Of a stretch of DNA of 64,000 bases, positions 45,049-50,311 are shown piece after piece. The notes under the pieces are model-generated. The model worked only from the letters and a program-made list of their open reading frames with translations, did not search any database and was not told where the DNA came from. The stretch covers positions 51,471 through 115,470 of the forward strand of contig JAKAHA010000001.1 of NCBI GenBank assembly GCA_021825445.1, in the 5' to 3' direction. This stretch comes from a bacterium (GTDB taxonomy: Bacteria > Patescibacteriota > Microgenomatia > UBA1406 > GWC2-37-13). The translations under genes and the position numbers were made by a program. Positions within the stretch are counted from its first letter, which is position 1. Each line of letters starts with the position of its first letter.

Positions 45049-45113
45049 GTCATTCCCGCGGAGGCGGGAATCCAGACTAAGATTTCCTGGATCCCCGTTT
45101 TCACGGGGATGAC
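45049..45113. repeat. dRS3-like palindromic repeat pair
   Basis: GTCATTCCCGCGGAGGCGGGAATCCAG ... CTGGATCCCCGTTTTCACGGGGATGAC. Confidence 0.9.
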
Positions 45114-45123
45114 AAGTAATAAT

Positions 45124-46791
45124 ATGTTTAAACAAGATCTTGGTTTTTATCTAGGTCATGAAAAACAGAACGGTTTTTCTGGCTTTGTTGATGAAAATAA
45201 TTTATTTTTGACAATTGAAATTGAAGAGGGGATTGATCCCGATCGTGGTCGAGAAATAACATTTTATATTAGAGAAAAAATCAGAGTCATCGTGATTGAA
45301 AATCTGCATCAATTTGATTTGTTTATTTCCAACATTATCAAAGAAAAAAATCTTCCTTCAGGGTCTTCACTTTCTATCGGTTACTTAAAAGGAAATATTT
45401 TTTATTTAAAAACAGTCAATCATGGAAAAATCTATATACGTCGCGATGATAAGCTAGCTCTTCTTGTTGAGGGAGACAAAACTGCATCAGGATTTATAAA
45501 AGAAGAAGATGTATTCGTCTTTACTTTCAGCAAATTTATGAATTTGCTTGGAGGGGAATCTGGTCTTAGTGATAAATTTGACCACCGACCAATCTCGGAA
45601 ATCATTGATGAAATCACTCCAGAATTATTAACTAAGGATGATCGGGGAACAGCCGCTTTATTTTTGAAATTAAAAAGTATTGATGAAAATCAAAAACCTG
45701 CCTCTAGTTTTTTTGAATTACCAAGAAAACCACAACAAAGAACTTTAACATTTATTACGGTTTTTATCTTAACATTGATTCTTTTTTGGAGTGTAGGTCT
45801 TGGGTATTATCGAAGATCTAAAGAAATTAATCAGAAAAAAATCAATTTAACAAAAGAATTAATTACTCAAAAATTAAGTCAGGCTGCGGAGGTATCTTTC
45901 TTAAATATGTCAAGTGCCTTGAGTTTGATTGCAGATAGTAAGGCGGAAGTGAAAAAATTAGTGGGATTAGATGATCAAGTAAAAGAATTAGAAAAGATGA
46001 TCAACGATAGTGAAAATAAGATTTTAAAAAAAGAAGAGAAAAAATATACGGAATTTTTTGATTTGACGGTCGACGACAAAAATGCAAAAGGTGAAAAACT
46101 TTATCTTGATGATGGTCGTTTACTAGTTAGTGATAGGAGTAGAGGAATATTATATGATCTTTCGCTTGATAAAAAATCTCTAGATAAAGATCAGTCGAGT
46201 GAAGTAAAAAAATCAGCTTTGATTTCTTTATTTGAAGATAAAAAATATTTTTATGTTGAAGGTGTGGGCATTTATCAAATAGTTGATGGAAAAACTAAGA
46301 AGATTATTAATGATGATAAAGAGTGGGGAAAAATCATTGATATGGTAGTTTTTAACGGTAATATTTATCTGCTCGATCAAGGCAAAAACGATATTTATAA
46401 ATATGTTAAAACGGAAGATGGGTTTGGAGGAGGGAAATCATATTTTGAGGCTGGGCAGACAATTAATTTATCATCGATTAACTCATTTACGATTGATGGT
46501 TCAGTCTATCTGGCAGGTGACTCGGTTATGTTTAAATATACGTCAGGTCTTCGAGACGGATTTAAGACTAATTTGCCAGATGAAAATATAAATACAACCA
46601 AAATTTTTACCAGTCGTGATTTGGAGAAAGTTTACGTCTGGGATAAAAGTCGAGGGACTATTTACATCATGGGCAAAAACGGTGATTACCTCGAGCAAGT
46701 AAATTCGAAAATACTTTCAACAGGAGCAGATATTGTGGTTTATAAAGATTCTATTTATATTCTTCAAGGAAGTAAAATTTATAAAATTTGA
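45124..46791 (+). CDS. PP2C-like N-terminal domain, TM segment and C-terminal propeller-like region, unknown function
   Basis: 557-aa ORF; ORF-track start at 45109 lies in the repeat, so ATG 45124 preferred. Confidence 0.65.
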   Translation: MFKQDLGFYLGHEKQNGFSGFVDENNLFLTIEIEEGIDPDRGREITFYIREKIRVIVIENLHQFDLFISNIIKEKNLPSGSSLSIGYLKGNIFYLKTVNHGKIYIRRDDKLALLVEGDKTASGFIKEEDVFVFTFSKFMNLLGGESGLSDKFDHRPISEIIDEITPELLTKDDRGTAALFLKLKSIDENQKPASSFFELPRKPQQRTLTFITVFILTLILFWSVGLGYYRRSKEINQKKINLTKELITQKLSQAAEVSFLNMSSALSLIADSKAEVKKLVGLDDQVKELEKMINDSENKILKKEEKKYTEFFDLTVDDKNAKGEKLYLDDGRLLVSDRSRGILYDLSLDKKSLDKDQSSEVKKSALISLFEDKKYFYVEGVGIYQIVDGKTKKIINDDKEWGKIIDMVVFNGNIYLLDQGKNDIYKYVKTEDGFGGGKSYFEAGQTINLSSINSFTIDGSVYLAGDSVMFKYTSGLRDGFKTNLPDENINTTKIFTSRDLEKVYVWDKSRGTIYIMGKNGDYLEQVNSKILSTGADIVVYKDSIYILQGSKIYKI

Positions 46792-46816
46792 CATTTGTTC
46801 CCCCCCCATATAAACT
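46788..46816 (+). promoter_or_regulatory. Promoter with C8 homopolymer in the spacer
   Basis: TTGACA (46788-46793), CCCCCCCC (46800-46807), TATAAA (46809-46814). Confidence 0.65.
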
Positions 46817-46849
46817 GAAGATTATTAGTAGTTATATACTTATCTTACT

Positions 46850-48151
46850 ATGAAGAACGACAAAATCTGTTTCTCAAAGACCTTCGTCACATTGGTACTT
46901 CTAATCGCGGTTGTAGTTGGCGGATTTTTGTTGATGAATAAATTCAACATAACAAAAATTAGCAGCAAGCCAAAGGCAGATGTTAGGTGTACTATACCGT
47001 CTGGGGGAGTATTAAATAGAACAAAATTTTCTTGTGATATTTATGGAGGTAGTAGTTCATTATTTTATTTTAAGAATCCAGAAAATGGAAGATATTATGC
47101 TGATGATGAGTGTAAAAAATGGCTGGTAGACGGTGTAAAAAACTTTTGTCAAAATTTATCTACAAATTCGAATAGAAACTGTGTCTGGAAAGTATGTGAA
47201 AGTCCCATCGCAGGTTCTAAAACAGTAAAGAGCTACTATACAGATGCAATTAATTACTATCTAAATAGTTCATGTCAAGGTAAAGTTGGAGCACTATATA
47301 ACGGTAGTAATTTTGCACCGAGTAAAAGTAAAAACGCAATTGAAACCTCTTATTGTCAAAAACCATATTCTGATTTAATTCCTCTTCAATTTAGTTGTTC
47401 CACCGTACCTGGTCAGTCGACAAATAATCAGGTATTTTATTACCAAAATGGTCAGTATTATAAAGATGCAAATAAATCAGTGAATGTCACAAAATGGGGT
47501 GTTGGAAATTTTTGTAAGTTGGCTAATGGCGGTACAGTTGCACAAAAAAACTCAATAGTTTCAACTACGTGTTTTGATTTAAAATTAAAACCAAGTGGAT
47601 CAAATAGTAATATTAATAAGGGGATGTTTACTAAAGCACAAGATTTAGTCAATTATCAAAATTCGTTAGATGTTCCTTACTACTACGACTCAGCACTTTC
47701 GGCAAAAATAGATAATATAAAGGGTTATTGCACGTATCCTGGATCAGCAGCACAATATAAAGCCAGTAGAATAATATCATATGATTGTAGTAAAAGTGTG
47801 TCAAAATCAATACCGGGTGCGTATTTTTATATGAAAGATAATAAATTGACTGACAAAGATGGACATGCACTTTCTCCAAGAATAACAACTAGCAATGTTT
47901 GTACGGGTAACCTAGTACAAAATGTCGGGTGTTATGATTTTTGGTCAACTTACCCGGACAAAACTATAAAAAACAAGTTTGATTGTACCAATCTTACTTC
48001 TGCCTCATTTGATTTGGGTTTTGACTATGCTAGTAATAAGTATTATTATAAATATCGAGCAGGAAATAAATATAAAGTGAGTGCAGAAGAAATCATGAAG
48101 CCATGGAACTCATCAGGGAACTTATATTGTAGTTGTGAAGCCAATTATTAA
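46850..48151 (+). CDS. Cys-rich secreted/anchored repeat protein, unknown
   Basis: N-terminal TM; repeated pattern F.C...(F/Y)YY/YF...W...NFC. Confidence 0.75.
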   Translation: MKNDKICFSKTFVTLVLLIAVVVGGFLLMNKFNITKISSKPKADVRCTIPSGGVLNRTKFSCDIYGGSSSLFYFKNPENGRYYADDECKKWLVDGVKNFCQNLSTNSNRNCVWKVCESPIAGSKTVKSYYTDAINYYLNSSCQGKVGALYNGSNFAPSKSKNAIETSYCQKPYSDLIPLQFSCSTVPGQSTNNQVFYYQNGQYYKDANKSVNVTKWGVGNFCKLANGGTVAQKNSIVSTTCFDLKLKPSGSNSNINKGMFTKAQDLVNYQNSLDVPYYYDSALSAKIDNIKGYCTYPGSAAQYKASRIISYDCSKSVSKSIPGAYFYMKDNKLTDKDGHALSPRITTSNVCTGNLVQNVGCYDFWSTYPDKTIKNKFDCTNLTSASFDLGFDYASNKYYYKYRAGNKYKVSAEEIMKPWNSSGNLYCSCEANY

Positions 48152-48170
48152 TTGGTTTGGTATTAAAATA

Positions 48171-48196
48171 CCCCGCCGGAGTGCGGGGTGTTTTTT
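48171..48196 (+). terminator. Rho-independent terminator
   Basis: CCCCGCCGGAGTGCGGGGTGTTTTTTT. Confidence 0.9.
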
Positions 48197-48274
48197 TGGT
48201 TATAATATTAAAATATATAAACTCGATAATATCATCACTTGACATTTAAAAAAATCGAGTTAAAATGGAAGTAT

Positions 48275-49531
48275 ATGATAAAAAGAGAGCTTTTTGACAA
48301 GATTCTTCCTTATTTAAATGAAAAAGAAATTATTTTAATTGCAGGACCAAGACAGGCGGGGAAGACAACTTTGTTAAAAATGATAAAGGAATATCTTGAA
48401 AAAAAAGGAGAAAAAACTGTTTTCTTCAATTTAGATATCGAACAAGATCGTCAGTTCTTCGTTTCTCAGGAGAGTTTGATCACTCAAATTAAGTTGCGAT
48501 TAGGAAACAACCCAGGGTTTGTTTTTATTGACGAAATCCAAAGAAAAGAAAATGCAGGTTTATTTTTAAAAGGTATGTATGATGTGGGACTTCCATTTAA
48601 ACTTATCGTTTCGGGCTCAGGAAGTTTAGAATTAAAGGAAAAAATTCATGAATCATTGACTGGTAGAAAATTAATTTTTGATTTAAATACAATATCACTA
48701 AGAGAATTTGTTAATTACAAAACAAATTATTTATATATTAATAATTTAATTGAGTTTTTTCAATTTGATAAGATCAAAAGTAATTCACTGTTACAAGAAT
48801 ATCTGAATTTTGGTGGCTATCCAAGGGTAATTCTTGCTGAAGAAATTGAAAAAAAAAGACTAATAATTAACGAAATTTTTCAAAGTTATCTAGAAAAAGA
48901 CATCTCTTATTTTCTAGGTCTAAAAAAAACCGATGAATTTATTAATTTAGTAAAAATTATTTCGTCTCAAATCGGACAGCTCGTAAACTTAAGAGAGCTA
49001 TCTTCTGTATTGGGTTTATCTACAAAAACAATCAAACTTTATCTTTGGTATTTAGAAAAAACTTTTATCCTGAAAAAGGTAACGCCATTTTATTCAAATA
49101 TAAGAAAAGAAATTACAAAGATGCCAATATATTATTTTATGGATTTAGGATTGAGGAATTTTTCCATTAATCAATTTGAAAATCTTAATAAAATTTCTCA
49201 AACTGGTTTCTTGTTTCAAAATTTTATTGCACGTTTAATAAATGATCAATTAAGTCTTTCTTCAAACTCTTTTCATTTCTGGAGGACACAAGATAAATCA
49301 GAAGTAGATTTTGTTATAAAAATAGGTCAGAAGATAATTCCACTTGAAGTTAAATTTAAACAGTTGGAAAAATCAGAGGTTCCTCGTCCCTTAATAAGTT
49401 TCATTGATAAATATAAACCTGAGAGAGCTTATTTAATCAATATGAATTTAGAAAAAGAAATCTTTATTAATAAAACAAAATTAACCTTCATTCCCTATTG
49501 GAGACTAATAGTTGATTTAATAATAAAATAA
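48275..49531 (+). CDS. AAA ATPase, DUF4143-type
   Basis: IAGPRQAGKTTLLK Walker A, FVFIDEIQR Walker B, GSGSLELKEKIHESLTGRK, C-terminal SEVDFVIKIGQKIIPLEVK; ATG 48275 preferred. Confidence 0.9.
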   Translation: MIKRELFDKILPYLNEKEIILIAGPRQAGKTTLLKMIKEYLEKKGEKTVFFNLDIEQDRQFFVSQESLITQIKLRLGNNPGFVFIDEIQRKENAGLFLKGMYDVGLPFKLIVSGSGSLELKEKIHESLTGRKLIFDLNTISLREFVNYKTNYLYINNLIEFFQFDKIKSNSLLQEYLNFGGYPRVILAEEIEKKRLIINEIFQSYLEKDISYFLGLKKTDEFINLVKIISSQIGQLVNLRELSSVLGLSTKTIKLYLWYLEKTFILKKVTPFYSNIRKEITKMPIYYFMDLGLRNFSINQFENLNKISQTGFLFQNFIARLINDQLSLSSNSFHFWRTQDKSEVDFVIKIGQKIIPLEVKFKQLEKSEVPRPLISFIDKYKPERAYLINMNLEKEIFINKTKLTFIPYWRLIVDLIIK

Positions 49532-49608
49532 TTTGCAGACATGCGGGGTGTTTTTTTGGCAAAATAACTGTTGACTTTTGCTGACTAATGCTACATAATA
49601 GGAGCTAT

Positions 49609-49878
49609 ATGAGTAATGGAATAACTTCAAACTTACAATTAAAATTGTCTTTGGATCAGGGTTTAACTGATGTGTGGGGGTATTTAAAAAAAGAATATCA
49701 AGGGTTAGACAAGTCCAGCATTGTTCGTCTCGCTTTAAATACTCTTTTTAAAGAAACAAAAAGAAGTCAATATAGACTGTACAGTATAGAAGAAATAATA
49801 AAAGAATTGGAGGTAGCTAATGAAGGAATGACTGAAAAAGAGATATATAATTGGTGGAATCAAAATAAACCTTTATAA
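49609..49878 (+). CDS. Antitoxin-like (RHH-type) protein
   Basis: Small ORF directly upstream of PIN gene; KSSIVRLALNTLFKET RHH-like. Confidence 0.65.
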   Translation: MSNGITSNLQLKLSLDQGLTDVWGYLKKEYQGLDKSSIVRLALNTLFKETKRSQYRLYSIEEIIKELEVANEGMTEKEIYNWWNQNKPL

Positions 49879-49885
49879 TCCATTT

Positions 49886-50311
49886 ATGCTAGTAATCCTT
49901 GACACTTCGGTAATCATAGCATTTTTACTTTCAACAGGTAAAAATTTTATTAGAGAAATTATTCGTCAGGCTAAAAATGGAAAGATAAAATTAATTGCTT
50001 CAAAAGAAACGATTGGTGAATTAAAAAAAACATTAACCCATCAATCAATAAAAAAATTACCAAACTATAAACCTCATCTAATTGCTTCATTTATTGCTTG
50101 GTATCAATATAATTCAATTTATTATTCTTTAGAAAATACAAAAATAATCATAGGTTCAAGAGATGCTAAAGATGATATATATATACAATTGGCTCTAATT
50201 TCTAAAGCAAAATACCTAATAACTGGAGATGAAGACTTGCTAATTATTAAGAAAATCAAATCAACAAAAATAATTACAACAGAAGAATTTTTCAACTCGA
50301 AAACTACATGA
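49886..50311 (+). CDS. PIN-domain toxin-like protein
   Basis: VILDTSVIIAFLLS...SRDAKDDIYIQLALISKAKYLITGDEDLL. Confidence 0.92.
   Translation: MLVILDTSVIIAFLLSTGKNFIREIIRQAKNGKIKLIASKETIGELKKTLTHQSIKKLPNYKPHLIASFIAWYQYNSIYYSLENTKIIIGSRDAKDDIYIQLALISKAKYLITGDEDLLIIKKIKSTKIITTEEFFNSKTT

Follow-up and report, generated by a model that had tools for sequence, protein, structure and literature searches.

A cytosine-tract promoter spacer of differing length, a candidate for graded modulation by slippage, precedes a putatively exported Cys-rich protein gene in Patescibacteria (Roizmanbacteria)

Phase variation by simple sequence repeats is known mainly from host-associated pathogens. At the porA and fetA promoters of Neisseria, a homopolymer is located in the spacer separating the -35 and -10 elements and expression is graded by spacer length, as experimentally proven. 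The opc promoter of Neisseria meningitidis carries a poly-C tract whose length, according to the account relayed by a later article, dictates expression by experiment (Sarkari et al. 1994, cited in PMC3447861). This tract varies in a mutS- meningococcus, no variation being observed in 89 colonies of the parent, and a G8 tract was converted to G9 in selected meningococcal mutants (PMC3447861). The poly-A promoter tract of N. meningitidis nspA counts 5A or 6A depending on the strain, and phase variation could not be demonstrated (PMC6389960). A full-text literature search for 'phase variation' together with 'Patescibacteria' returned nothing related.

We investigated a candidate promoter within a 64,000-nucleotide stretch of a Patescibacteria genome (hereafter termed the window). 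A TTGACA hexamer (46788-46793) overlaps the TGA stop codon (46789-46791) of a gene encoding a 560-aa protein (45109-46791) and is followed by TTTGTT (46794-46799), a run of eight cytosines (46800-46807), a single A (46808) and TATAAA (46809-46814), all on the + strand. On re-reading the sequence, each of these coordinates, the overlap with the stop codon and the 15 bp between TTGACA and TATAAA proved to be exactly as given in the original prediction, which took TATAAA, a five out of six match to the consensus, as the -10 element. A better-spaced overlapping hexamer, TAAACT (46811-46816, +), was omitted from that description. It lies 17 bp from TTGACA (spacer TTTGTT-C8-ATA, 46794-46810, +), and the combination TTGACA-N17-TAAACT displays 10 of the 12 consensus matches and was picked independently by a promoter scan. 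TAAACT possesses A2 and T6, the two most conserved -10 positions, whereas TATAAA is devoid of T6. Both hexamers and a spacer within 16-18 bp, kept in eight orthologous loci, correspond to a vegetative promoter of the sigma70 type, here with a simple repeat, C8, inside the 17-bp spacer. The segment 46788-46816 is thus very probably the real promoter of the gene for the exported Cys-rich protein, and transcription would start from TTGACA-N17-TAAACT.

Homologues of the 560-aa protein, composed of a TM segment and of a C-terminal part predicted to be probably beta-propeller-like, are found in 164 of 185 relatives and the gene served as a synteny anchor. None of the Pfam, NCBIfam and PHROG families matched the protein above cut-off, and no Rfam structured RNA was detected in 46400-48400. 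The DNA 3' of the upstream stop codon was read in 30 genomes, including that of the window (G000); a single scan of public genome contigs yielded three relatives only and IMG/VR contained no strain-level copies of the window's own sequence. In eight orthologous loci TTGACA was retrieved just 3' of the upstream stop with a -10 element at 17-18 bp, which bears out the promoter comparatively: the distance is 18 bp in G008, G015 and the more distant congeners G004, G010, G017, G019 and G003 (-10 elements TACATT, TAATCT, TATTCT, TATTCT and TTAATT, respectively), and 17 bp in G014, this last value being weak evidence since the -10 there is partly made by a repeat inserted at a contig end. That repeat, AAGTTTATGTTTCAAATAATGGGTCTATAAACGG, is inserted directly after the C7 tract, within the -10, and occurs at three contig ends of G014 (C67:32990-33045, C67:1-33 and C78:1-33); it is probably the end of a mobile element interrupting the promoter.

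In the closest clade (G000, G002, G008, G014 and G015, support 100/100), the locus reads TTGACA-TTTGTT-C8-ATATAAACTGA in G000, TTGACA-ACCGCT-C9-AATTAAAATGA in G008, TTGACA-ACCGCT-C7-TAATTATAAG in G014 and TTGACA-ACCGCT-CTCTCCCCC-AGTTAGAATGA in G015, and a different gene without C tract occupies it in G002. G008, G014 and G015 share the same context: the same upstream gene lies 5', and the gene located 3' encodes an exported Cys-rich protein. Tract length does vary between species, each represented by one genome (C7, C8, C9 and CTCTC5). The tract of G015 is interrupted, the gene downstream of it being intact. Within the clade, identity amounts to 72-81% for the upstream proteins and to 36-53% for their four-fold degenerate sites; that 13 of 13 spacer bases (ACCGCTCCCCCCC) are nevertheless common to G008 and G014 argues for constraint.

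The same alignments bear on the position of the -10 element. The G008, G015 and G000 sequences downstream of the tract align gap-free, which places the -10 at TAAAAT, TAGAAT and TAAACT, at 18, 18 and 17 bp respectively. The 15-bp TATAAA register finds no support among orthologues and is probably wrong, the homologous -10 being TAAACT. As initially conceived, the promoter would be an on/off phase-variable switch leaning to OFF at C8, one step short of a favourable spacer, and turned ON at C9-C10 by the gain of 1-2 C. TATAAA is indeed a five out of six match at its proposed place, and switching by a promoter poly-C tract is well documented at opc, C11 against C12 (PMC3447861). With the homologous -10 at 17-18 bp in G008, G015 and the sister clade, and with A2 and T6 both present in TAAACT, C8 is however already near optimal and the gain of a C is not the step to ON; this on/off scheme is accordingly improbable. 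An illustrative score, based on assumed base frequencies and spacer penalties with -10 weights that we approximated, amounted to 3.6 for C7, 4.6 for C8, 3.9 for C9 and 1.9 for C10. By the same scoring TATAAA comes in range at C9-C11 and takes over at C10-C11.

Could the C8 run simply have fallen by chance between promoter-like hexamers? The original prediction regarded it as conspicuous, and it exceeds all other C/G runs of the window (GC 33%) in length, but only four C8/G8 runs were counted in 1.02 Mb of genome when order-1 to order-3 Markov models of the window predict about 3.3-8.4 on both strands, so that the length of the run does not by itself surpass chance. Nor does the region contain an excess of promoter-like sites (38 found, 33 expected). 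Against a fortuitous run stand the orthologues, whose promoters show C7, C9 and CTCTC5 in the corresponding place, and the scarcity of the combination elsewhere in the genus: TTGACAN{2,10}CYCYCCC, searched in 20 congeneric genomes, matched promoters at this locus only, its seven further sites lying in ORFs. We reject chance as highly unlikely, largely refuted by the orthologues. What exceeds chance is the C-rich spacer kept at an orthologous promoter in relatives; position and conservation matter.

The other three C8/G8 runs of this genome lie within ORFs, the run at 46800-46807 being the sole one in a promoter, and no genome-wide contingency set of C8 runs was seen in it. The 5' end of an ORF is a classical place for translational slippage, and one of the three (L003, contig C20, 1166-1173, minus strand) is a C8 in a short Pro-rich ORF, situated 8 codons past its ATG. 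A wider search for TTGACAN{4,9}C7 in 72 relatives revealed four further sites, three of which are not promoters of any same-strand gene. The promoter-like one, from another family of the class (L052, G092:C5:16102), reads TTGACA-AAT-C8-GATTCT-TATTAT with 17 bp between hexamers; it is located shortly 3' of an upstream stop and before a gene for a protein with an N-terminal TM segment, and constitutes an independent poly-C spacer. On a GC-rich, unrelated IMG/VR contig (L131:14398-14440), TTGACAACCGCTCTCCCCCGGCCTATAATGAGTGCATG forms a consensus promoter with 17 bp between hexamers and this same C-rich spacer, a match to the G008-like motif that is probably coincidental.

The gene that this promoter would drive (46850-48151, +) encodes a 433-aa protein and is followed by an intrinsic terminator (48165-48194, +). 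With a single N-terminal hydrophobic segment and 19 Cys, the product looks exported, in agreement with the secreted Cys-rich protein announced by the original prediction, and may be located at the surface. It had also been called a repeat protein; BLAST self-comparison gave no internal repeat, and by eye degenerate Cys-containing units may occur. No match was found in Pfam, NCBIfam, PHROGs or PDB sequences. The first ~45 residues, a leader/TM segment, are conserved in the genus (MKxDKICFxKTLTYLVLLxxAVVGAFxxMNYxNxQ...A, 47-54% identity to the window's copy), the leader of G008 being itself divergent. The body past the leader, predicted to be extracytoplasmic and Cys-containing (Cys share 3-7.5%), diverges very fast and is unalignable between G000 and its closest relatives. 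The same leader (MKxDKICxxKTxxYLxxL...NYxNxQ...KA; window 46850-46990) is found at the start of further exported proteins of the family (L103-L128), whose bodies are unrelated: some are Cys-rich, and two (G019 C12 and G006 C38) look trypsin-like by sequence. We interpret it as a common export or anchor segment combined with exchangeable bodies, and it may be a lineage-specific signal. Several contigs end inside or shortly after the leader (G001:C17:27-77, G007:C13:4037-4105 and an ORF running off G019:C38), as if the assembly had broken at points where one leader is followed by several bodies in the population. In the window's genome (46817-46849) and in G008, the Cys-rich gene lacks a Shine-Dalgarno sequence; G015, G004, G010, G017, G019 and G003 carry GGTGGTGA or GGGGGTGA as Shine-Dalgarno before the gene. 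In the window (48239-50311), genes for an AAA_14/DUF4143 ATPase and a PIN-domain protein, with a small ORF, separate the Cys-rich gene from a T4SS-pilin-like pair. Since G008 and G015 have the Cys-rich gene alone there, this segment looks like an accessory-gene insertion.

MutL (PF01119) was detected in none of 20 congeneric genomes, that of the window included, and MutS_V (PF00488) was absent from 19 of them, leaving the window's genome without detected MutS or MutL; controls for these searches were positive in 11 of 14 genomes. The exception is G008, where the MutS_V ATPase domain occurs twice in an unusual 1183-aa ORF (L132, G008:C15:1678-5230) that differs from canonical MutS. A literature search on mismatch repair loss in CPR yielded nothing directly usable. 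The apparent lack of both proteins would favour slippage. We propose that an ancestral pyrimidine-rich 18-bp spacer gave rise to a C tract in a small clade of the genus, and that species then came to differ in its length by one or two bases. Slippage of such a tract is to be expected when the DNA is replicated, and all the more with MutS and MutL apparently missing. A one-base slip at C8 would bring the -10 to 16 or 18 bp from the -35, with as likely outcome a graded change of expression, akin to a rheostat, rather than an on/off switch, and having two staggered -10 hexamers would cushion the promoter when one or two bases are gained or lost. A C-tract promoter that would modulate the exported-protein gene in this graded fashion is our best explanation, although we hold it to be evenly balanced between right and wrong. 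The same even judgement applies to slippage of the tract within populations, which is plausible, and expression would be expected to change with tract length.

Several observations would suit a spacer that is C-rich for another cause, be it promoter geometry, a regulator reading ACCGCT or C-rich DNA, or pyrimidine-rich drift. Under this alternative the promoter would be an ordinary one, constitutive or regulated, with a spacer of invariant length within populations. Sister-clade spacers are conserved in sequence without any homopolymer (e.g. ACTCTTACATTTTCAG), in G015 an interrupted tract goes together with ACCGCT and 18 bp, and ACCGCT is identical in three species (G008, G014 and G015), so that constraint extends past the C run. 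Against this alternative, three species have maintained a pure C run though the preceding six bases differ in G000, and the interval length differs by one base between species (17 and 18). Taken as a whole, this explanation is a real if lesser possibility. The intact gene behind the interrupted tract of G015, a tract that should slip little, indicates that a pure tract is not needed, and with silent sites near saturation the differences between species need not reflect ongoing slippage.

Graded modulation by slippage, our preferred reading, is to be distinguished from a selected phase switch, which is possible but doubtful, C8 being short for a switch and below the C11-C12 of meningococcal opc (PMC3447861). 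Phase variation as such is a plausible idea that we entertain only tentatively, tract lengths being known between species only. It is similarly rather unlikely, albeit conceivable, that we are dealing with a genuine contingency locus, in a lineage of Patescibacteria (Roizmanbacteria) without mismatch repair, where slippage of the spacer tract would tune or switch an exported protein with a constant leader and a hypervariable body. If true, small uncultured bacteria that are probably dependent on a partner cell would use contingency loci, which might serve for instance against phages or for attachment to the partner.

As in opc, a poly-C tract lies in the promoter of a gene whose product, here by prediction, is located at the surface, and slippage, which is commoner at opc without mutS (PMC3447861), would occur in a genome where MutS was not detected. 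Unlike that of opc, which is C11-C14, the tract here is C7-C9, is embedded in a canonical TTGACA promoter with a 17-bp spacer, is known to vary in length between species only, and precedes the gene for an unrelated protein in a different phylum. The likeness to nspA resides in a short homopolymer near the -10 with length differences, between strains there and between species here; as those of nspA came without demonstrable phase variation, C7, C8 and C9 in different species are not proof of switching. With porA and fetA the locus shares a homopolymer in the spacer between -35 and -10, and from its sequence a graded dependence of expression on spacer length would be expected here as well.
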